A stretch of 64,000 nt of DNA from Flavobacteriales bacterium (GTDB lineage Bacteria > Bacteroidota > Bacteroidia > Flavobacteriales > Flavobacteriaceae), in NCBI GenBank assembly GCA_026993355.1, contig JALWTX010000016.1, positions 1 through 64,000 of the forward strand. Reading direction: 5' to 3'. The notes under the pieces are model-generated. The model did no database searches. It had not been told where the DNA came from and was given only the letters and a program-made list of their open reading frames with translations. The position numbers and the translations under genes were made by a program. The stretch's first letter is position 1; each line of letters starts with the position of its first letter. This document shows positions 1 to 9,777 of the stretch, in pieces.

Positions 1-125
1 CAAAGTGATATTAAAATAAGAACATATAAATCAAAAAAACCACAGAAAGAAATTTCTTTCTGCGGTTTTAGTTAATAATTTAATTAATTTTGCTAAAAAC
101 CTGTAACGGTTATTTAGGACTAGTC
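1..125. repeat. Left arm of 125-bp perfect inverted repeat
   Basis: Reads as the exact reverse complement of 7881-8005, base for base. Identity stops abruptly on the inner side after position 125. On the outer side the match reaches the first base of the window, so the repeat may be longer. It contains a terminator-like palindrome. Together the two arms enclose the peptide-export locus. Confidence 0.95.
33..65 (-). terminator. Palindromic terminator in left repeat arm
   Basis: Bases 40-65 form a near-perfect 13-bp stem, CCACAGAAAGAAA against TTTCTTTCTGCGG. On the minus strand it is followed by seven T residues (33-39), the layout of an intrinsic terminator. It would stop transcripts moving leftward out of the island. 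Confidence 0.6.
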
Positions 126-195
126 AATACGATATCATATTTTTAAGGATAAAAGCTTGTTGTGGCGATTTATAGAAAAAAATAACTTTCTGGAA

Positions 196-1023
196 ATGTT
201 TAATAACAAAACAAAAAAATTTGACATTAAAATAATCAATTCACATTGGATTAAAGAGAATCTTAAAATTGAGAATAATTTTTTAGCTCCTCATATGAAC
301 AGTCGAAAAATAGATCATTATATCAATTTTGAACTTTATAACACTTATACTTTTCATAAAGAAGGAGTCGGGTTTATTTTTTATGATGATTATATAATTG
401 AAACACCATTTATTTTGGAACCACAAAATAAACTTACTTGCTTTAAATTAAATAATTTTAATAAAAAAATGTGGCACTTCCAACTTCCGGAAGGATTTAA
501 AATATTTAGTAAAATACAACCAGTGCAGAATATTTTATTCTTTAAAGCAACAAAAGGGGAATTTTTTGATTATCAAAATACCTATGGTTTAGATATTAAA
601 ACCGGAAAAATATTATGGGAAAGTAATTATCCTAAAGATAAGGCTATTGTAGCATTCAACATAAACCCGCACGATAATCTTTGTTATGGTTATGGCGGTA
701 ATCATTACCAAGTGTTTAATCCTATTACAGGAAAAATTTTGATTGATAAAGATATGAGTAGTTACTACAAACAAGGCATAGACCCGGATATTTACAGAAA
801 TGCTATTTATGATCATAAATTGTGGTTTGTAAGTGGTAGAGGAGATAATGCAAAGTTTGGCTCAATAGATCTTAAAACTCACAAACTAGATTTTTTACAA
901 GATTTTCCGTTAGAAAAGGACGGACAATTTGACAAACCGGTTTGTCATAAAGGTAAATTATATTTGCGAGATGATAATAAGGTTTTACACATCTTTGAAA
1001 ACCCCCAAAATAAAAGCCTATGA
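196..1023 (+). CDS. Orphan protein with PQQ-like beta-propeller repeats
   Basis: I do not recognise a named family. The protein has beta-propeller-like repeats: phrases such as GLDIKTGKILWE and FNPITGKILID resemble the strand-turn pattern of PQQ-like propellers. No signal peptide or membrane segment is visible. The reading frame opens at 124, just inside the end of the left inverted repeat. ATG 196 is the first ATG, and TTG 157 is a possible alternative start. Codon use is AT-rich like the rest of the island. The frame beginning at the repeat edge hints that the 5' end may have been lost. It is convergent with the peptide-export operon. An immunity role is conceivable, but nothing in the sequence proves it. 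Confidence 0.6.
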   Translation: MFNNKTKKFDIKIINSHWIKENLKIENNFLAPHMNSRKIDHYINFELYNTYTFHKEGVGFIFYDDYIIETPFILEPQNKLTCFKLNNFNKKMWHFQLPEGFKIFSKIQPVQNILFFKATKGEFFDYQNTYGLDIKTGKILWESNYPKDKAIVAFNINPHDNLCYGYGGNHYQVFNPITGKILIDKDMSSYYKQGIDPDIYRNAIYDHKLWFVSGRGDNAKFGSIDLKTHKLDFLQDFPLEKDGQFDKPVCHKGKLYLRDDNKVLHIFENPQNKSL

Positions 1024-1069
1024 ATTGAGGAATGCAATAGTGCGAAGTGCCCAGCGGTAATGTGGATAG

Positions 1070-1219
1070 TGCGGATTAGATATAGGATACATTGAGGAGT
1101 TGGGGCATATAAAGTATAAGTCAAACAATCATTACCCTGCCGTATAAAAGCAGATTTTTGTTTATCTTAAAAATGTACCAGACGATAGGACTTGTGCGGT
1201 AGCGGAATTTTTATTCTAA
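1070..1219 (+). pseudogene. Broken coding fragment between propeller gene and exporter
   Basis: One frame reads protein-like sequence (CGLDIGYIEELGHIKYK...), meets TAA at 1145-1147, then continues in the same frame with KQIFVYLKNVPDDRTCAVAE and stops at 1217. There is no start codon and a stop lies just upstream. This fits the remnant of a lost gene of unknown family. The remaining bases 1220-1388 show nothing I can support. Confidence 0.35.
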
Positions 1220-1388
1220 AAACTAAATAAAATTTTTTGAAAAAAGAAAATTTATTTGGTCAAGACATAGTAAACGAGGAAATGACTTTGTATGATTGCC
1301 ATGTAGACTCTTGTCCATTTGTCATTATTTCTTTAAATTTTACAATAAATTGTAATCTTTCTCTGTGAGTTATTATAAACTTTCTTTT

Positions 1389-2681
1389 CTAATTTTTAAT
1401 TTTTGACTTTAATTTATTAAAAAACCTGTCAATTAATCTAAGATCTTCAGTGATTATTTCAGCTTGTCCCTTCATCTCTTGTTTAAACACAATCATTTTA
1501 TTATATGAAGTTCTCATTTTATTAGGAAGTGATACTTCTATCAAATAAAAACCTTTGTCATTTGGAACTGAAGATATTGAAACAATTTGACCATTAAGAA
1601 CTCCAAATTCATCACTGGGATAATTTTCTAATTCTATATAAACTTTTTGTCCTAATTTTATTTTTCCAGCATTTTTGGTAGGAGCTTTGATTTTGGCTAT
1701 ATATTTTTCATTATTATTAGGTAAAATTGTATAGAGAACATCTCCGGCATTTATATTCTTATTAACATGCCAAAAATTTAAATAAGTAACTTTACCATCT
1801 ATATTTGACTTTAAAACATTGATTTTTTCCCAATTTTTAATAGATGATTTTAATTTGCTAAAATATTGCAATACATCTTTCAGTAATCTTAATTCTTCTT
1901 TAGTTTTATTATAAATAGTATTATCAACTGTCTTCTTACCATTACTAATTGCTTCTTCTAATTGTGAAATTGAAAGATTAAACTCTGAATAATTCCGTTG
2001 ACTTCTCAAAAAATCACTTTGTTTGCTTTCCAAATTTTGTGCAGATATTATACCTTTATTGTAAAGAACTTCATAACGTTTTAAATCTTTCTGTTTTATA
2101 TCGATTTCTTTTTTTAGTAACCTCTTTTGAGAATATAATCTTTTCAACCTCACTTGCATTTTTGATAACGAAAATCGATCAGCTTTCTTTTTAACTTCAA
2201 AAGGTTTTAGTTTATGGTTTAATATATACAATGAATATGCATTTTCAAATGCGGCATAATCTGATTCAATAGGGCCCAAAAAAAGAATTGGCAACTTGTC
2301 AATTGGGAATGAAAAATTATTTTTGTTTAACTGTATAGTATCTATAATTGATTTCAACAAATAAACATCTTTATAATTGGCTGTGTTTTCAATTATTGCA
2401 ATTGGCGTATTTTTTTTTACTAATTCACCATCTTTGATTAATAAGTGTGAAATTTTTCCTGTCTTTCTTGCTACAATTTTTTCCGGTGGCGTTTGAGTTG
2501 TAACTACCGCATTGGCAGTAATTATATCAGGGTATTTTATAAACCAAGAAATTAATATTAGTGCTAATAAAATTACTAAAATAAAAGTATTACCCCACCG
2601 TATCATCCAATTTGGAACTGCAGTTAAAATTTCTTGAACTTCTTCGCTACGGATTTCTATGTTATTTTGATTATTTGGCAT
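1389..2681 (-). CDS. HlyD-family membrane fusion protein (peptide exporter adaptor)
   Basis: Periplasmic adaptor expected to link the inner-membrane C39 ABC transporter to an outer-membrane channel. It has a short cytoplasmic N-terminus, one membrane segment at about residues 27-48 (TFILVILLALILISWF), and a biotinyl-lipoyl-like half motif near 80-115. A long coiled-coil hairpin spans about 170-290, the second lipoyl half (NIDGKVTYLNFWHVNKNINAG) follows near 300, and a C-terminal beta-barrel closes the protein. At 430 residues it is normal for bacteriocin-type HlyD proteins. It starts directly after the transporter stop codon, so the two are co-transcribed. No TolC-like outer-membrane gene lies in the island, so a chromosomal one would have to be shared. 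Confidence 0.9.
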   Translation of the reverse strand: MPNNQNNIEIRSEEVQEILTAVPNWMIRWGNTFILVILLALILISWFIKYPDIITANAVVTTQTPPEKIVARKTGKISHLLIKDGELVKKNTPIAIIENTANYKDVYLLKSIIDTIQLNKNNFSFPIDKLPILFLGPIESDYAAFENAYSLYILNHKLKPFEVKKKADRFSLSKMQVRLKRLYSQKRLLKKEIDIKQKDLKRYEVLYNKGIISAQNLESKQSDFLRSQRNYSEFNLSISQLEEAISNGKKTVDNTIYNKTKEELRLLKDVLQYFSKLKSSIKNWEKINVLKSNIDGKVTYLNFWHVNKNINAGDVLYTILPNNNEKYIAKIKAPTKNAGKIKLGQKVYIELENYPSDEFGVLNGQIVSISSVPNDKGFYLIEVSLPNKMRTSYNKMIVFKQEMKGQAEIITEDLRLIDRFFNKLKSKIKN

Positions 2682-4874
2682 TTATTTTCCTAATTCCAAT
2701 TGATTTTTAACTAAATTATAATATTTTCCTTTTAGAGCAACTAATTCCTTATGATTCCCTAATTCTACGATTTTACCTTGATCCAATACGACAATTTGGT
2801 AAGCATTTTTAACTGTACTTAGTCTATGTGCAATAATTACAGCAGTTTTATCTTTAAAAAATGTATTTAAATTTTCCATAATTATTTTTTCATTATTTGC
2901 ATCTAAAGCAGATGTTGCTTCATCGAAAAATAATAGTTTAGGATTTTTATATACTGCTCTAGCAATTAATAATCTTTGCTTTTGTCCGGTACTTAATCCA
3001 ATTCCCTCATTCCCGATTTTAGTATTTACTCCTAAAGGTAACTCATTTATAAAATCACTTATATTTGCAATTTTTATGGCATGCATAAGTTTTTTTGTGT
3101 CTATAAAATCTACCCCCACAGCAATGTTATTTGCTATTGTATCATTAAAAATATATCCTTCTTGCATTACTACCCCACAATGGTCACGCCAAACTCTTTG
3201 AGAAACATTAGAAAGAGGAAACTTATTTATAAATATTTCACCTTTATCTATATCATAAAATCTAAGTAAAAGTTTCATTAATGTAGTTTTTCCACTTCCA
3301 CTAGTTCCAACAATTGCTGTAATCTTATTTGCAGGAATATCCAATGACAAATCTTTGATAACAGGTTTCAAACCACCTGTATAACGAAAAGAAATATTTT
3401 TGATATGAATATCAGCATTCTCCGGAATTGTTTTAATTTTATCAACTGTTTCTTCTTCTTCATTTTCCATATTATGTATTTCACCCAAACGGTCAATAGA
3501 AATCTTAGCATCTTGGACGTCACGCATAAAACTAATAAGTTGCAAAATTGGTCCATTTAGTTGACCAACAATATAACTAATTGCCATCATCATCCCCAGT
3601 GTAATATTACCGTCTATTACTAATTTAGCAGATAATACAGTAATCAACATATTTTTACTTTCATTGATAAAATTAGATCCTACACTTTGAGTTTGTTCTA
3701 ATGCTAAGCTTTTGGTAGCAATTTTAAATAATCTTGCTTGTATAAACTCCCAATTCCAACGCATACGACGTTCAGCATTGTGTAGTTTAATTTCTTGCAT
3801 ACCATTAATTAATTCAATTACTTTGCTTTGTTCTTGGCTAATTTGAGAAAAATGTTTATAATCCAATTCCTTTCTTTTTTTAAAGAAAAATAGTACCCAA
3901 ATTAAGTATACTATACTTCCAATAATAAAAACACCAAAAATTTGTATACTGTAATGGGCTAAAACCAAACTAAAAATAATAAGGTTGATAAATGAGAATA
4001 AAATTGTTAATGATGAAGTGGTAAGTATTTTTTCAATACGTTTATGATCATTAATACGTTGTAATAAATCTCCCGTCATTCGTACATCAAAATATGAGAT
4101 AGGTAGTTTCATCAGTTTTATAAAGAAATCGGAGATTAGTGATATATTGATTCTTGTGCTTAAATGCAATAATATCCAACTCCTAATAATTTCAAGGGAT
4201 GCTTTTCCTACAAATAATAATAGTTGAGCTATTAAAATTAGATAAATAAAATTAATATCTTGATTCTTAATTCCTACATCAACAATGCTTTGCGTTAAAA
4301 AAGGCAAAATAAGTTGTAATAGACTACCGGCTAATAGTCCAATCCCTATTTGTATTATAAATTTTTTATATTTAAATAAGTATTTAAATATAAAGTTAAA
4401 ACCAAATTTTTCATCTTCTTCAAAATCTTCTTTATAAAAATTAGGTGTAGGTTCAAGTAATAGGGCAATTCCTTCTTCTGTCATTTCATTTGCATTATTA
4501 CCAATCCAATGTTGAATAAATTCTTTTTTTGAATAGTTTATTAGCCCTATGGCTGGGTCAGATATATATACTCTGTTCTTCTTTATTTTGTAGACAACTA
4601 CGTAATGATTTTTGTTCCAATGTACTATACAAGGTAAAGGTGCTTCTTTAAGCTTCTCATATGATAGTTTTACACCTAAAGAACGAAAACCTATTTTTTC
4701 AACAGCTTCGCTTATTCCTAACAGGCTACTTCCTTCACGTGTAGTTTCACTTAGTATGCGTAGTTGTTGTGTATTTATTATTTTACCATAGTGTTTGGCA
4801 ATAATTTTTATACACGTAGGTCCACAATCTTTGGCTTCTGTTTGCTTGTAAGTTGGAAATTTTAATCTTATCAC
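2682..4874 (-). CDS. C39-peptidase ABC transporter for double-glycine peptides
   Basis: Cuts the leader behind a Gly-Gly motif and exports the core peptide. The N-terminal C39 protease domain (about 1-130) keeps the catalytic Cys17 in KDCGPTC, the His in HWNKNHYVV and the Asp in YISDPAIG. A transmembrane exporter domain covers about 165-450. The nucleotide-binding domain follows, with Walker A GTSGSGKTT at 523-531, signature LSTGQKQR, Walker B LLFFDEATSALD and H-loop IAHRLST. At 730 residues it matches the family. It lies downstream of two GG-leader precursors and immediately upstream of the HlyD gene. All active motifs are intact, so the system is probably functional. Confidence 0.95.
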   Translation of the reverse strand: MIRLKFPTYKQTEAKDCGPTCIKIIAKHYGKIINTQQLRILSETTREGSSLLGISEAVEKIGFRSLGVKLSYEKLKEAPLPCIVHWNKNHYVVVYKIKKNRVYISDPAIGLINYSKKEFIQHWIGNNANEMTEEGIALLLEPTPNFYKEDFEEDEKFGFNFIFKYLFKYKKFIIQIGIGLLAGSLLQLILPFLTQSIVDVGIKNQDINFIYLILIAQLLLFVGKASLEIIRSWILLHLSTRINISLISDFFIKLMKLPISYFDVRMTGDLLQRINDHKRIEKILTTSSLTILFSFINLIIFSLVLAHYSIQIFGVFIIGSIVYLIWVLFFFKKRKELDYKHFSQISQEQSKVIELINGMQEIKLHNAERRMRWNWEFIQARLFKIATKSLALEQTQSVGSNFINESKNMLITVLSAKLVIDGNITLGMMMAISYIVGQLNGPILQLISFMRDVQDAKISIDRLGEIHNMENEEEETVDKIKTIPENADIHIKNISFRYTGGLKPVIKDLSLDIPANKITAIVGTSGSGKTTLMKLLLRFYDIDKGEIFINKFPLSNVSQRVWRDHCGVVMQEGYIFNDTIANNIAVGVDFIDTKKLMHAIKIANISDFINELPLGVNTKIGNEGIGLSTGQKQRLLIARAVYKNPKLLFFDEATSALDANNEKIIMENLNTFFKDKTAVIIAHRLSTVKNAYQIVVLDQGKIVELGNHKELVALKGKYYNLVKNQLELGK

Positions 4875-4990
4875 TATTTGTAATAAATCTGTATTAATTA
4901 TAAGTATAAAGCTTTAGCGTTATCCTTAAAAACATAATAAAATATATATTTAAATAATAAATATTAATCTTTATACTTATGAAATTAATT

Positions 4991-5012
4991 AGAGGGGTTT
5001 TAAAACCCCTCT
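4991..5012 (-). terminator. Perfect palindrome between precursor and transporter genes
   Basis: A 22-bp perfect palindrome (AGAGGGGTTTT and its complement) lies 25 bp after the stop of the first precursor. On the minus strand it is followed by AATTAATTT rather than a clean T-run. It could be a partial terminator or an mRNA-stabilising hairpin. Either would keep precursor mRNA more abundant than transporter mRNA. Confidence 0.55.
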
Positions 5013-5036
5013 ATGGAAAATTAATATACTCACTCA

Positions 5037-5270
5037 TCAACATTCAACAATAATTGAACACTCGCCATAAACTAAACCACCAAAACCACTACCATATGAT
5101 GTCCATTTAGGTCGAAGTTCTACAGGTTGAGAATAACATTGTTGTTCAGTACTTGTAAAAGTTACAATACCACACTCCTTTGTCCAATCTGGTATAAATC
5201 CACCATTTATACTTTGTTGTTCTTTTTTGCTAAGTGCTTTAGCACCTTTTAAGTTTGATAATTTTTTCAT
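5037..5270 (-). CDS. Double-glycine leader precursor peptide A (bacteriocin-like)
   Basis: A 77-residue precursor. The 24-residue leader ends in QQSINGG, a C39 cleavage site, and is identical to that of peptide B. Cleavage would leave a 53-residue core beginning FIPDWTKECG and containing four cysteines, two near the middle and two near the C-terminus (GECSIIVEC). It has aromatic and glycine-rich parts (WTSYGSGFGG). An even cysteine number fits two disulfides, and a VKOR-thioredoxin oxidase is encoded next door. No lanthionine synthetase or other modifying enzyme is present. Activity and target are unknown; antimicrobial or signalling roles are inference. Confidence 0.85.
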   Translation of the reverse strand: MKKLSNLKGAKALSKKEQQSINGGFIPDWTKECGIVTFTSTEQQCYSQPVELRPKWTSYGSGFGGLVYGECSIIVEC

Positions 5271-5311
5271 AGTAAAAAATTTAAAAATGAATAATTACTG
5301 TATACTTTATA
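5196..5311 (-). repeat. Duplicated leader and 5' region, copy 1
   Basis: Bases 5196-5311 match 5526-5641 (offset 330) with a single difference at 5303. The block covers the end of the GG-leader coding region back through about 40 bp upstream of the start codon. Identity stops right at the core-encoding part, so leader and upstream control were duplicated together while the cores differ. Confidence 0.9.
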
Positions 5312-5396
5312 AGAAACATATAGGTTTAGTTAAAATATTTTTTAATAATAAATATTTTTAGTTTAAAACTTCTCAAAAAGGGAACTCCAAATTCAT

Positions 5397-5600
5397 TTAT
5401 CCTAATGCACAAATTAAGTCATCTCCTCCAGGAAGTCCAACACAAGTTCCACTTCTGCCATAAGGATCACCAGGTATTATACACGGATCGCCAGGCGCAG
5501 ATCCTTTACAAGCCTCTAAAATGGCAAATCCACCATTTATACTTTGTTGTTCTTTTTTGCTAAGTGCTTTAGCACCTTTTAAGTTTGATAATTTTTTCAT
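5397..5600 (-). CDS. Double-glycine leader precursor peptide B (bacteriocin-like)
   Basis: A 67-residue precursor with the same 24-residue leader (ending QQSINGG) as peptide A. The predicted core has 43 residues, starts FAILEACKGS and includes four cysteines in a Gly/Pro-rich context: GDPCIIPGDPYGRSGTC and DDLICALG. It shares no clear similarity with core A beyond the cysteine count. The upstream 40 bp also match those of peptide A, so both are probably expressed alike. The likely fate is cleavage and export by the C39 transporter at 2682-4874 and oxidation by the VKOR-thioredoxin protein at 5894-7489. The biological activity is unknown. Confidence 0.85.
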   Translation of the reverse strand: MKKLSNLKGAKALSKKEQQSINGGFAILEACKGSAPGDPCIIPGDPYGRSGTCVGLPGGDDLICALG

Positions 5601-5641
5601 AGTAAAAAATTTAAAAATGAATAATTACTGTACACTTTATA
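5526..5641 (-). repeat. Duplicated leader and 5' region, copy 2
   Basis: Second copy of the block at 5196-5311, one mismatch in about 116 bp. It carries the leader of peptide B and its upstream region. The near identity marks a recent duplication or gene conversion. Confidence 0.9.
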
Positions 5642-5893
5642 TGACACGTACAGTTTGTGTCTATTCCTCGCGAGAGAATATTTTAATTATTTTATCATAT
5701 TAAAGATTGAAGCAGCAAAATTTTATCATCATAATGTTTTAAATAACTTGATGTATAATAATTTTTTCATTTTTCTATCTTTGGCAGATTAAAAAAATGA
5801 AATATCATTTTAATAATAATTAAACATAACTCACATCTAATACATAACAAAGTTATAAAATATATTATTAATATCAAATATATTATTATTTTT

Positions 5894-7489
5894 TTATAAT
5901 ATTTTATTTCCCATAAAATCATCATATAGATCTTCTAAGAAAAACTTCAAATCATTTCTTTCATATTCTTTAGGAAATGCCCTACCATTTATTAATATTT
6001 CAGGTGTAAAATTGATATTGTAACTCTGACACCATTCACTTTCCTCTTTTAGAATTTCAATATATTTGTTTGGCTCAATCGGTTCACCCCATTTTTCAAA
6101 CCAATCTTTTGGATTTTTTCTACCATAAATATCATTCATTGCTTCATGTGCTGAATCTTCTCCTTGTGTTTCAATAACCTCTAGCAATCGGCTTGTAATT
6201 TTCACAATACCGGTATTGGTATCTCTTGTATTAATATTAAAACGAATAATTATTTTAACTAGGTTTTTAAATTTAGATTTAAGTATATCATCCATCATTT
6301 TGTGAACCTCTTTACAATGTCCACAAAATGGATTTGTAATTATTGTTATAGGTAAACCCTTTTTATTTCCAAAAATTATCTCTGATTGATTATTATTAGG
6401 TAAATCTATATTTATCTTATTTTGGTTTTTCAATAAGTTATTAAATAAATTAAAATTCTTTTTAAATTTGAAAAATTTAATTTTTTCATTTTTTAATTCA
6501 AAAATAGATTCTAACATTGGTCTTAAGTAATACCATAATGAAATAATACCTGCAAAAGAAACTGCTGCAAGCATGACCTCTTGGCTTCTAAAAGAAAATG
6601 ATGTAATACTTGAGTTAGTTAATACAAGTATTGCCTGCAGCCACAAAACACCCAAAATACTTAAACACAATCCACACCATGCTTTTATCACATAATATTG
6701 ATAGTATATTGAATAAAATGTGATAAGAATTGCTAATAAAATAATACTATATGGGATGCTTAAATTTTTCGTTGTTATACCTGTCAAAAATATCAACAAA
6801 CTTAACCCTGTAAAATAAATAAAACTTGCATCACTTAATTTTATAAAGTTAAAAATTTTAGCTTCTTTAGAATTTATAACTGTATCACAATCATTTTTTT
6901 TATTCTCTCCTGAACAAAAAGCATTTCCAAGTGTTGTTTGTAATCCCAGTTCTTTTTTTAGAATTGCTATACTAATGATAATTCCAATTAGTGATGTGAT
7001 TAATAAAATTGAACTTAATATATCTGGTTTAAAAGCTATCCATGCAACTATAAATATAGTGAGTATAGAAATCCATAGAATAATATGCATTTTAGATTTG
7101 CTAGATTCGACAGGCATTAAATTTTCATCTTTTTCGGCTGCAACTATAATTCCTGTGAAAATTTTTTGAAATTCGTCAATTCCATATTTCAATTTTTTAT
7201 TATCTGGAAATGTTACATCATAAACCATATTATCTTTCGACACCAAAACAATTTTTTTTATTTTTTCATGATTTATTTGAGCTAAAAAGTGTTTTGGTAA
7301 TTGCGTAAGATTTTCCTTGTTTACGGGAATATTTAGAGCAATATTTTCGATATTGAAATGATTTAATACACCGGTTATTGCATGTAAACTTGGAAATGAT
7401 GGGTGGCTTTTGATTTGAAAAATAAATTCTTCTTTGTCAATATTTTTAATGTTTAATTTTTCAAGTAAAATATAGGTTAGGTCTTGCAT
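5894..7489 (-). CDS. C39-like/VKOR/thioredoxin membrane protein (disulfide formation)
   Basis: Probably oxidises cysteines of the exported peptides. About 1-125 resemble a C39-like domain without the catalytic Cys. Membrane helices follow from about 130. The VKOR part holds the loop pair Cys192 and Cys201 (FCSGENKKNDC) and the redox CxxC at 272-275 (WCGLC). The C-terminal periplasmic thioredoxin/DsbA-like domain has C389-G-H-C392 (NPFCGHCKEVH). The 531 residues match proteins of this layout seen beside GG-leader peptides in Bacteroidota. It is upstream of both precursors on the same strand. The degenerate protease domain may recognise the leader, which is inference. The gap 5701-5893 shows nothing clear. 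Confidence 0.9.
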   Translation of the reverse strand: MQDLTYILLEKLNIKNIDKEEFIFQIKSHPSFPSLHAITGVLNHFNIENIALNIPVNKENLTQLPKHFLAQINHEKIKKIVLVSKDNMVYDVTFPDNKKLKYGIDEFQKIFTGIIVAAEKDENLMPVESSKSKMHIILWISILTIFIVAWIAFKPDILSSILLITSLIGIIISIAILKKELGLQTTLGNAFCSGENKKNDCDTVINSKEAKIFNFIKLSDASFIYFTGLSLLIFLTGITTKNLSIPYSIILLAILITFYSIYYQYYVIKAWCGLCLSILGVLWLQAILVLTNSSITSFSFRSQEVMLAAVSFAGIISLWYYLRPMLESIFELKNEKIKFFKFKKNFNLFNNLLKNQNKINIDLPNNNQSEIIFGNKKGLPITIITNPFCGHCKEVHKMMDDILKSKFKNLVKIIIRFNINTRDTNTGIVKITSRLLEVIETQGEDSAHEAMNDIYGRKNPKDWFEKWGEPIEPNKYIEILKEESEWCQSYNINFTPEILINGRAFPKEYERNDLKFFLEDLYDDFMGNKIL

Positions 7490-7626
7490 ATAATTTGAAT
7501 TCTTAAAGTTTTAATAAATTATAAATGAATAGTTTCTTTTAATCAACATTATGTTTATTCAAAACATTAGACAGTTCAATCTGGTGCAATTTATAAAAAA
7601 AGAGCCATTGCAACTAATTTTTAAAA

Positions 7627-7728
7627 CTAATTTCTTGATATAATTTCCAATTTACCTTTAATATTATTGATCTTTATGCATTCATTTTGTAAAATGATTA
7701 TTCTTTTATAAGTTGATTTTTCTTTCAT
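7627..7728 (-). other. Possible 33-codon ORF or gene remnant
   Basis: An ATG-started frame (MKEKSTYKRIIILQNECIK...) with charged, protein-like composition. The open frame extends 18 codons further upstream without a start. It may be the tail of a lost gene rather than a living one, and no family is recognised. It lies upstream of the VKOR gene, where its promoter region would be expected. Confidence 0.25.
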
Positions 7729-7778
7729 CGAACTTAAGCTCTCAATGTATTTAGTTAAATCATAGAATCGGGGTATAA

Positions 7779-7886
7779 TACTTTACTAATAAAAATTTTA
7801 ATTTTTTAAGGCAAGAAGGATATTATGAGAAAGAAATAACAATCGCAGGAAGAGATTTGCCATCAGTAGTATATCATAATGACTAG
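7779..7886 (+). pseudogene. 3' coding fragment ending in right repeat arm
   Basis: The frame from 7779 reads ...LRQEGYYEKEITIAGRDLP... and ends SVVYHND-stop, with the stop at 7884-7886, three bases inside the inverted repeat. There is no plausible start. The following repeat then supplies a terminator, as expected for a true gene 3' end. The fragment is probably the C-terminus of a lost gene of unknown function. Confidence 0.4.
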
Positions 7887-8005
7887 TCCTAAATAACCGT
7901 TACAGGTTTTTAGCAAAATTAATTAAATTATTAACTAAAACCGCAGAAAGAAATTTCTTTCTGTGGTTTTTTTGATTTATATGTTCTTATTTTAATATCA
8001 CTTTG
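7881..8005. repeat. Right arm of 125-bp perfect inverted repeat
   Basis: Exact reverse complement of 1-125. The inner edge falls at 7881, where similarity to the left side ends. It contains a stop codon of an upstream fragment, a terminator palindrome and the beginning of the broken frame that continues to 8269. The arms are 7.76 kb apart in opposite orientation, so recombination between them would invert the island. Confidence 0.95.
7941..7973 (+). terminator. Palindromic terminator in right repeat arm
   Basis: Stem 7941-7966 (CCGCAGAAAGAAA against TTTCTTTCTGTGG, closed with one G-U pair) followed by seven T residues. It is the mirror copy of the hairpin at 33-65 and well placed to end the frame that stops at 7886. 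Confidence 0.7.
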
Positions 8006-8269
8006 TTTGAAATTGAATTTGATGGAAGAGATGGCGATTATTTGGTCTTTAGTAAGCGAAAATTACTTAAAACCAATAAAATTAAGATTATTTATAACCC
8101 CGGATTTGATGTTATTTATAATAAAATAAGTCTTGTACAATTAAAAAACAAATACCCAAAATTTTCATCTCTTCCTAATGATTACGATGGATAAGAAGGA
8201 CTTCAAGATATTCTAAAAGGCTATACTTCATTCATTGAATATTTATTCAATAATAATAAGTTTTTTTAA
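8003..8269 (+). pseudogene. Truncated gene with internal stop at island edge
   Basis: The frame reads FEIEFDGRDGDYLVFSKRK... to NDYDG, hits TAA at 8192-8194, then continues in frame with EGLQDILKGYTSFIEYLF and stops at 8267-8269. No ATG starts it; the frame opens after TGA at 7973 inside the repeat. It looks like a gene cut by the repeat rearrangement and later broken by a nonsense change. The family is not recognised. Bases 8270-8385 hold only a short hairpin (TTTGGC...GCCAAA). Confidence 0.5.
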
Positions 8270-8385
8270 TGCTCTCTTTGGCTAAAGGCCAAAGCCTGAT
8301 GGCCTCGTTTCATTTTTCATCAGTCACCCGCAATTTTTTAATATGGTATCAGCAATTTTTTGTAATTTTATCATAAAAATAAAAC

Positions 8386-9777
8386 ATGGAAGATATAAAC
8401 AGTTATTTGATACAAAATAAACAACGTCTTTTGGACGAACTTTTCGATTTGTTGCGTATTCCTTCTGTTAGTGCTGATCCGGCTTATGCAACTGATGTTG
8501 AATCGGCAGCCGAATTTATAAGGGACAAAATGACCCAAATGGGTTTGGATAATGTTTCTATCGAAGAAACGCCGGGTTACCCAATTGTATATGGCGAAAA
8601 GATAATAGATCCGGCATTGCCGACGGTTTTGGTTTATGGACATTATGATGTGCAGCCGGCAGATCCGCTCGAACTGTGGGAATCGGATCCTTTTGAGCCG
8701 GTGATAAAAAAAACTCCTATTCATCCTGATGGCGCCATATTTGCCCGGGGGGCTTCAGACGACAAAGGCCAAATGTTTATGCATTTAAAAGCCGTAGAAT
8801 ATTTATTAAATAAAAAAGCCCTGCCGGTCAATGTAAAATTTATGATTGAAGGGGAAGAGGAAGTCGGTTCGCCCAGTTTGGCTTGGTATGTTGCCCGCAA
8901 TCACGATAAGTTAAAAAATGATGTGATTATTATTTCGGATACAGGCATGGTGGCTAATGATGTGCCGGCCATTACCACAGGCTTGCGTGGGCTGGCTTAT
9001 GTCGAGGTCGAAGTAACCGGCCCCAACCGCGATTTGCACTCCGGATTGTATGGCGGTGCAGTAGCCAATCCGATCAATATTTTGGCCAAAATGATTGCCC
9101 AATTAACTGACGAGCAAAATCGAATAACTATACCCGGTTTTTATGATAAAGTCCGCGAATTATCACCTGAGGAAAGGGCTGCCATTGCCAAAACGCCTTT
9201 TGATTTGGAAGAATTTAAAAAAGATTTAGGCATAGAAGATGTGTACGGCGAAGCCGGTTATACCACTTTGGAACGCCAAAGTATCCGGCCTACCTTAGAT
9301 GTCAATGGTATTTGGGGGGGCTATACCGGTGAGGGGGCCAAAACGATTATTCCTTCAAAAGCCTTTGCCAAAATCAGTATGCGATTAGTGCCGGACCAAG
9401 ATCCGGATGAAATCCCGCAACTGTTCACCGATTATTTCAAAAAATTAGCCCCTAAAGGGGTTAAAGTTAAGGTGAAAAATTTACATGGTGGTCATCCTTA
9501 TGTTACGCCGACAGACAGTCCGGGATATAAGGCTGCAGCCAAAGCCATGAAACGTGCCTTTGGTAAAGAGCCGTTGCCTATTTATTCGGGAGGCAGTATT
9601 CCGATTGTCCCTTTGTTTGAGAAAGAATTAGGCTCAAAATCAATTTTGATGGGTTTTGGTCTTAATTCGGATGCCATTCATTCGCCAAATGAACATTTTG
9701 GAGTTTTTAATTATCTAAAAGGAATAGAAACGATTACTTATTTTTACAATTTTTATAACCAGCAAAAAAATAAATAA
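8386..9777 (+). CDS. M20-family metallodipeptidase
   Basis: Cytosolic zinc peptidase of the M20 family, of the dipeptidase subgroup related to carnosinase-like enzymes. The di-metal motifs are in order: YGHYDVQP near 86 (His and Asp), ARGASDDKGQ near 120 (bridging Asp), EGEEEVGSP near 155 (catalytic Glu and metal Glu), SDTGM near 183 and SDAIHSPNEH near 440. A dimerisation domain lies between. At 463 residues it is full length. It hydrolyses dipeptides or small peptides; the exact substrate cannot be read. The next gene follows after 2 bp, so the two are co-transcribed. Base composition here is clearly richer in G+C than the island to the left. Confidence 0.92.
   Translation: MEDINSYLIQNKQRLLDELFDLLRIPSVSADPAYATDVESAAEFIRDKMTQMGLDNVSIEETPGYPIVYGEKIIDPALPTVLVYGHYDVQPADPLELWESDPFEPVIKKTPIHPDGAIFARGASDDKGQMFMHLKAVEYLLNKKALPVNVKFMIEGEEEVGSPSLAWYVARNHDKLKNDVIIISDTGMVANDVPAITTGLRGLAYVEVEVTGPNRDLHSGLYGGAVANPINILAKMIAQLTDEQNRITIPGFYDKVRELSPEERAAIAKTPFDLEEFKKDLGIEDVYGEAGYTTLERQSIRPTLDVNGIWGGYTGEGAKTIIPSKAFAKISMRLVPDQDPDEIPQLFTDYFKKLAPKGVKVKVKNLHGGHPYVTPTDSPGYKAAAKAMKRAFGKEPLPIYSGGSIPIVPLFEKELGSKSILMGFGLNSDAIHSPNEHFGVFNYLKGIETITYFYNFYNQQKNK

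Follow-up and report, generated by a model that had tools for sequence, protein, structure and literature searches.

A VKOR fusion protein as a probable leader-guided disulfide maturase of double-glycine peptides in Bacteroidota

The analysis covers the 64 kb at the start of contig C16 (JALWTX010000016.1) in a Flavobacteriaceae genome of 2.2 Mb; this whole stretch is referred to as the window. Near its left end, five genes on the minus strand are transcribed in the order VKOR protein, precursor A, precursor B, peptidase-containing ABC transporter (PCAT) and HlyD (Table 1). The VKOR protein, a fusion of C39-like, VKOR and DsbA-like thioredoxin parts, very likely introduces disulfide bonds into peptides with a double-glycine (GG) leader. 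The explanation that best accounts for the whole locus, and which we regard as probable, is a leader-guided disulfide formation before export by an inverted VKOR, followed by export through PCAT and HlyD. All five genes were found where a first-pass annotation had placed them. That annotation was right but understated, as the locus is one representative of a broad system. It had proposed leader cleavage on export plus oxidation of the cores to two disulfides. A dedicated disulfide-making oxidase is upheld by the data described below, whereas the order and the compartment of oxidation probably differ from that model. This difference is the most interesting part, and the topology of the enzyme is the point that had been missed.

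In Pfam searches the VKOR protein matched VKOR (2.7e-15) and Thioredoxin_4 (1.5e-5), and C39 only at 0.0034. Its score against the VKOR family PF07884 was 57.1 bits (cut-off 27.5), and it carries the loop cysteine pair, the CxxC motif and the conserved serine of this family. The protein has seven cysteines (192, 201, 272, 275, 389, 392 and 487). Six of them, correctly assigned before as the Cys192/Cys201 pair, CGLC 272-275 and CGHC 389-392, are invariant in 95/95 homologs. Ser260 is present in 94/95 and cis-Pro496 in 95/95 of these proteins. An AlphaFold2 model of the full protein, built on an alignment of 14 rows, reached a predicted local distance difference test score (pLDDT) of 82 and a predicted template-modelling score (pTM) of 0.58. 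The middle part gave a profile match to 4nv6 in a search against PDB sequences. Foldseek matched the model to ScsC, BdbD and DsbA, which its C-terminal part resembles in fold, and also to PCAT1.

The N-terminal 126 residues were modelled separately (pLDDT 90.7). Foldseek matched this model to PCAT1, the ComA peptidase, the PCAT protease-leader complex 6mpz and HlyB (7sgr), with TM-scores of about 0.6-0.7. The C39-like character assigned to this part earlier is thereby borne out as a fold. However, no cysteine precedes residue 192, and among the homologs 79/95 have none upstream of position 126, while the rest have none at a common position. The domain therefore cannot be a cysteine peptidase. 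A direct BLAST comparison of this pseudo-C39 domain with the C39 domain of the window PCAT gave no match; their relation is visible only by profile and fold. By analogy to 6mpz and HlyB, the pseudo-C39 domain most likely binds the leader.

Both precursors start with the same 24-residue leader MKKLSNLKGAKALSKKEQQSINGG, which ends in GG, and continue into otherwise different cores with four cysteines each, as annotated. They adjoin a PCAT with an intact C39 protease (Peptidase_C39 at 3.9e-37, besides ABC_membrane and ABC_tran), in which the catalytic Cys, His and Asp are present (DCGPTC, NHYVVV and SDPA). GG-type leaders in both precursors next to an intact C39 domain are the features of GG-leader peptides exported by a PCAT. 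A match to the Pfam family Bacteroid_pep was weak and confined to the leader of precursor A, and precursor matches within Flavobacteriaceae were led by the leader region and covered the core only partly. Neither precursor matched NF047798 (leader_Chryseo, cut-off 23.5 bits), a model that two of three tested Chryseobacterium-type precursors exceeded. The earlier statement that the cores match no nameable class holds for the two core sequences. It does not hold for leader type and architecture, which belong to a large Bacteroidota set covered in part by NF047798 and close in concept to bacteroidetocins (PMC6671954).

A fixed leader pattern picked out 183 intergenic GG-leader peptides at 81 of the 92 loci examined. 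This number of loci is a lower bound, since the strict pattern overlooks some peptides (in L029/L061 and L032, for instance). The pattern is free of any cysteine requirement, and no cysteine-free peptide was left after the intergenic filter. The cores of the 183 peptides contained 2 (8 peptides), 4 (50), 5 (4), 6 (107), 7 (7), 8 (5) or 9 (2) cysteines. Clustered at 45% identity they formed 97 core families, 88 with an even and 9 with an odd cysteine count (p = 2e-17 versus an even split). As a small control, 19 PCAT loci chosen without a linked VKOR yielded nine pattern matches with 0, 2 or 5 cysteines. This shows that cores linked to the VKOR enzyme are built for cysteine pairing, whichever pairs form. 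A knottin-like C-C-CC-C-C spacing occurs in some six-cysteine cores (L046, L055, L060, L092 and L109) and is only a lead. As a general framework it was rejected, being found in 5/41 families versus 3.4 expected by shuffling, which is not significant.

Further support for disulfide maturation is provided by the position of the VKOR gene. PCATs that are 67-70% identical to the window PCAT and accompanied by HlyD, but without VKOR, adjoin a grasp-with-spasm ATP-grasp gene (TIGR04192) plus SPASM genes, or LanB. Since these similar pairs sit with graspetide or LanB maturases, the export pair is common to several peptide classes, and the VKOR protein fills the class-specific maturase position. Profile searches with Pfam and NCBIfam recognised no other modifying enzyme in positions 1-8385, in agreement with the annotation. 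The even cysteine counts, the invariant redox cysteines and this maturase position together support disulfide formation by the VKOR enzyme. At one locus (L033, 9208-10246) an open reading frame (ORF) like the start of an ATP-grasp peptide maturase lies directly beside the VKOR/PCAT/HlyD set, which suggests that peptide classes may share one exporter locus.

The arrangement is not due to chance, because it recurs in many genera. A single scan, which covered one genome for each species, found 160 relatives of the VKOR enzyme, of which 80 loci were kept; these belong to Tenacibaculum, Psychroserpens, Aquimarina, Flavobacterium, Chryseobacterium, Dokdonia, metagenome-assembled genomes of Bacteroidales and Cyclobacteriaceae, and others. 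Among 51 sampled loci a PCAT was nearby in 32 and an HlyD in 31. Plasmid-borne relatives exist as well; on Aureibacter pAT1 the VKOR gene, two GG-leader cysteine-rich peptides, PCAT and HlyD stand in a row. The window locus is a patchily distributed member of a system that is widespread in Bacteroidota.

In which compartment the enzyme would act depends on its topology. The AlphaFold2 model, evaluated with DSSP, contains six long hydrophobic helices (131-152, 157-180, 218-239, 244-268, 273-291 and 302-343). As their number is six, both the N-terminal domain and the DsbA-like domain end up on one side of the membrane, together with the Cys192/201 loop and the CGLC end. Membrane-near lysines and arginines were far more numerous on this active-site side (15.6 per protein versus 0.6 on the opposite side; 0.188 versus 0.029 per residue), and the active-site side was richer in 95/95 homologs. 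With an alignment-free counting rule, the active-site loop outweighed both opposite loops in 94/95 homologs. The same rule gave 0/23 for canonical VKORs of the phylum, with the reverse in 22 and one tie, and the solved cyanobacterial VKOR 4nv6 has the charge pattern of this canonical set. By the positive-inside rule, this distribution of lysine and arginine indicates that the active-site side is the cytoplasm. The same side is favoured by the folded N-terminal domain without a signal peptide and by its leader-binding fold, which would be useless after leader removal. An inverted VKOR, with active site and pseudo-C39 domain toward the cytoplasm, is thus moderately supported by the predicted structure, and the predicted helix count and charge do not agree with the periplasm-facing active site of canonical bacterial VKORs. 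As fold and charge distribution both point to an inverted enzyme, oxidation most likely precedes export.

One competing explanation is that PCAT first cleaves and exports the peptide and the VKOR-thioredoxin protein then oxidises the core in the periplasm, like ordinary VKOR-DsbA pairs. Ordinary VKOR and DsbA enzymes indeed act outside the cytoplasm (4nv6 and the DsbA homologs), and bacteroidetocins are secreted and have an associated thiol oxidoreductase. This order is nevertheless rather unlikely. A folded domain of ~120 residues without a signal peptide would have to cross the membrane, a leader-binding fold would meet only peptides whose leader is gone, and the lysine- and arginine-rich side would have to be outside, contrary to the charge pattern of every homolog. 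The cytoplasmic, leader-guided order is the likelier one on the basis of the modelled topology.

According to the preferred explanation, the VKOR protein would bind the precursor leader through its protease-dead C39 domain, and the DsbA-like CGHC would oxidise the core cysteines to two disulfides. The CGHC would be re-oxidised via Cys192/Cys201 and the CGLC motif, with electrons passing to the membrane quinone. These steps would take place at the cytoplasmic face and before export, the enzyme being inverted relative to an ordinary bacterial VKOR. The active C39 domain of PCAT would then cut after GG and the core would be exported, with HlyD bridging toward an outer-membrane channel encoded outside the cluster. 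Several points weigh against this scheme. The positive-inside rule has exceptions, the alignment behind the full-length model is shallow (14 rows, pTM 0.58), and helix 6 is less hydrophobic than the others and falls under the hydropathy cut-off. If helix 6 were not membrane-spanning, the DsbA-like domain would be cut off from the loop cysteines with which it must exchange. Leader binding is argued from the fold only. Among proteins of solved structure, those most closely related to the DsbA-like domain work outside the cytoplasm. Moreover, the cytoplasm is reducing, a folded disulfide peptide must be able to pass through PCAT, 9/97 core families have odd cysteine counts, and no immunity gene was recognised at the locus. 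On balance, we consider it somewhat favoured that the fusion is a new type of peptide maturase, in which a cytoplasm-facing, quinone-coupled VKOR, fused to a DsbA-like domain and to a protease-dead C39 domain for leader binding, would form disulfides in leader-bearing precursors within the reducing cytoplasm.

The products are probably antibacterial. We infer this activity, which the annotation had expressed as bacteriocin-like, from array-like, hypervariable cores with up to ten divergent precursors per locus (L044), and by analogy to bacteroidetocins. It is also conceivable, though distinctly less likely, that the same maturation serves peptides acting as signals or host-interaction factors; this concerns function only and is compatible with either topology. 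Some multi-copy GG-leader peptides elsewhere are pheromones, and the lack of a recognised immunity gene would fit such a role. On the other hand, the number and variability of the cores resemble arms-race peptides, and Bacteroidales are killed by bacteroidetocins, which of all tested peptides come closest in concept (PMC6671954, PMC8546649).

It is improbable that the cysteines serve other chemistry, such as metal binding, thioethers or other cross-links, while the redox protein merely reduces or protects them. PCAT/HlyD pairs of this type are indeed used for graspetides and LanB products, and in a Parabacteroides relative LanC and glycosyltransferases are encoded close by. However, no such enzyme was recognised in the window locus, oxidation agrees with the even cysteine counts and with a relay of VKOR plus DsbA, and a reductase would have no need of a quinone-coupled VKOR. 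Many bacteria use VKOR as a general oxidase, but a housekeeping function with an incidental peptide neighbourhood is very improbable for a protein that carries a PCAT-like domain, is linked to PCAT, HlyD and cysteine peptides in many genera, is absent from 12/12 congeners and occurs in just 10/99 relatives. A PF07884 search of those genomes gave 15 matches, 14 of which were the genes already found with the full protein; the remaining one is a different protein (in G049).

Table 1. Features of the left end of the window (positions refer to the whole stretch).
Feature	Position	Strand	Basis and remarks
VKOR-thioredoxin fusion (C39-VKOR-DsbA-like), 531 residues; proposed leader-guided disulfide maturase	5894..7489	-	Pfam, AlphaFold2, Foldseek
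Pseudo-C39 domain, residues 1-120, no Cys; proposed leader-binding	7130..7489	-	AlphaFold2, Foldseek
Six-helix membrane part with VKOR core, residues 134-323; Cys192/201 loop, CGLC 272-275	6521..7090	-	DSSP, charge bias
DsbA-like thioredoxin domain, residues 366-520; CGHC 389-392, cis-Pro 496	5930..6394	-	Foldseek, profile search against PDB sequences
Promoter-like site of Bacteroidota type, TTG-N19-TAACTTTG, upstream of precursor A	5848..5877	-	Consensus match only
Precursor A, 67 residues: leader MKKLSNLKGAKALSKKEQQSINGG (5529-5600) + 43-residue core with 4 Cys	5397..5600	-	
Precursor B, 77 residues: identical leader (5199-5270) + 53-residue core with 4 Cys	5037..5270	-	
Duplicated block of 131 bp (leader + upstream DNA), copy 1	5196..5326	-	Copy 2 at 5526-5656, 95% identical
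Terminator-like hairpin AGAGGGGTTTTAAAACCCCTCT between precursor B and PCAT; possible attenuator	4991..5012	-	z = -2.9
PCAT with an intact C39 protease at the N-terminus, for leader cleavage and export	2682..4874	-	GTG start
HlyD-family periplasmic adaptor	1389..2681	-	
Dispersed repeat, left copy, at contig end	1..135	+	Inverted relative to 7871-8005
Dispersed repeat, right copy, bounding AT-rich island	7871..8005	-	

Gene order and strand agree with the operon-like cluster described before, but the terminator-like hairpin lies between the precursors and PCAT. Because of this hairpin after precursor B and the promoter-like site upstream of precursor A, strong precursor expression with partial read-through into the exporter genes is plausible from the sequence. 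The duplicated block, which contains the leader, extends to DNA 5' of the precursor start codon.

The cluster lies in an AT-rich island (GC content 26.8% in 1-8000 versus 36.2% in 8386-64000). The gene that adjoins the island (8386-9777) is retained by each of the 12 congeners examined, and its upstream neighbours differ and vary in congeners with readable flanks. The island is bounded by two copies of a repeat of 125-135 bp that are inverted and 99% identical. Horizontal acquisition is the natural reading of the low GC content, the patchy presence of VKOR, the varying neighbours in congeners and the bounding dispersed repeats. Nine further contig ends carry this repeat too, with the GACTAGTC end always toward unique DNA; the repeat, where the assembly breaks, resembles the long terminal repeat of a mobile element. 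A phase-variable invertible cassette was rejected as the leading explanation of the two copies on account of these nine other occurrences. Two AT-rich ORFs on the plus strand, one inside the island (157-1023, 288 residues) and one just outside it (8003-8194, 63 residues), had no Pfam or NCBIfam match and are possible immunity or remnant genes.

Several variants were observed among the related loci. Nine loci encode a DUF6734 protein whose median distance to the VKOR gene is about 90 bp (e.g. L037, 9389-11005); it may be an accessory enzyme in this pathway. A second C39-VKOR-thioredoxin branch (L034, L063, L071 and related loci) has GLPGLI (Porph_ging) or AhpC/TSA-type thioredoxin neighbours. 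L034 and L063 have no linked PCAT, and in both a cysteine-rich peptide adjoins the VKOR gene; odd cysteine counts are concentrated partly in loci of this branch. On a plasmid of the gut bacterium Parabacteroides distasonis (L222, NZ_OY725766.1), C39-VKOR is accompanied by a six-cysteine leader peptide, a LanC-family protein, two glycosyltransferase-related genes and PCAT, so that the VKOR enzyme is combined with other tailoring genes. Decayed VKOR fragments with in-frame stops were found in G050 (contig C4, L141), together with a PCAT fragment, and in G095 (contig C57, L041), which indicates that the system was lost in some lineages.

If the proposed scheme is true, disulfide formation would count as leader-guided tailoring on a par with LanB or ATP-grasp chemistry and would serve a large hypervariable family of cysteine-rich peptides across Bacteroidota, and the window enzyme would be a natural bacterial example of a cytoplasm-facing VKOR. 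The C39-VKOR-DsbA fusion would then be a specific, recognisable search handle for these largely unexplored peptides, of which the loci considered here yielded about 180 in 97 core families, and as a single-protein route to leader-guided cytoplasmic disulfides it could be useful for producing disulfide-rich peptides. The site of disulfide formation in bacteria that carry the fusion is directly testable. In the literature searched, which largely did not cover subscription journals, we found no description of a C39-VKOR-DsbA fusion as maturase and no publication joining VKOR with bacteriocins and disulfide bonds or with flavobacterial bacteriocins.

Individual parts of the enzyme have known counterparts. 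The C39-like domain of HlyB is a protease-dead C39 fold used in substrate binding, and it was among the matches of the N-terminal domain (7sgr). In HlyB it is fused to an ABC transporter, whereas here it is fused to an oxidase. Synechococcus VKOR (3kp9/4nv6) shares the VKOR fold, the loop cysteine pair, the CxxC motif and a C-terminal thioredoxin-like domain. The window protein differs from it by the additional N-terminal pseudo-C39 domain, one extra helix, inverted charges and a DsbA-like domain instead of a minimal thioredoxin. For a cytoplasm-facing VKOR function, the archaeal enzyme of Aeropyrum pernix may be a precedent by analogy: according to the title of a 2017 study by Hibender et al., its topology reportedly supports disulfide formation in two compartments. 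To our knowledge, it has no tie to exported peptides or a C39 domain.

At the level of the whole cluster, Bacteroidota clusters for grasp-with-spasm graspetides and for LanB lanthipeptides have similar PCATs and an adjoining HlyD, but their maturase is ATP-grasp/SPASM or LanB rather than VKOR. The NCBI 'bacteriocin-like protein' model NF047798 describes a leader carried by Chryseobacterium precursors beside the same VKOR/PCAT/HlyD set; unlike these, the window precursors do not match, and the model names the leader only and is silent on maturation. Bacteroidetocins (class IIf) are GG-leader peptides of Bacteroidota, mostly with four cysteines. They are encoded with a PCAT, a protein with five transmembrane (5-TM) helices and, in the majority of regions, a separate thiol oxidoreductase to which the formation of their disulfides is ascribed; there is evidence for disulfides in tested members and for killing (PMC6671954). 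Their target is BamA (PMC8546649). The GG leader, the four core cysteines, the PCAT-type exporter and a dedicated thiol oxidoreductase are common to both systems. In contrast, bacteroidetocin leaders comprise 15-16 residues ending in GG, followed by at least two core cysteines (four in the main members), whereas the window leader has 24 residues. By length, as opposed to sequence, the cores of 43 and 53 residues compare with 42 in the two main members. With the enzymes compared by architecture, a single C39-VKOR-DsbA fusion stands here in place of separate 5-TM and oxidoreductase genes, which are absent in 1-8385. The cluster further contains HlyD, for which there was none in the portion of the bacteroidetocin text searched (PMC6671954). 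Because of the leader length and the missing separate 5-TM and oxidoreductase genes, we do not class the window system as a bacteroidetocin; among known systems, bacteroidetocins are the closest to it.

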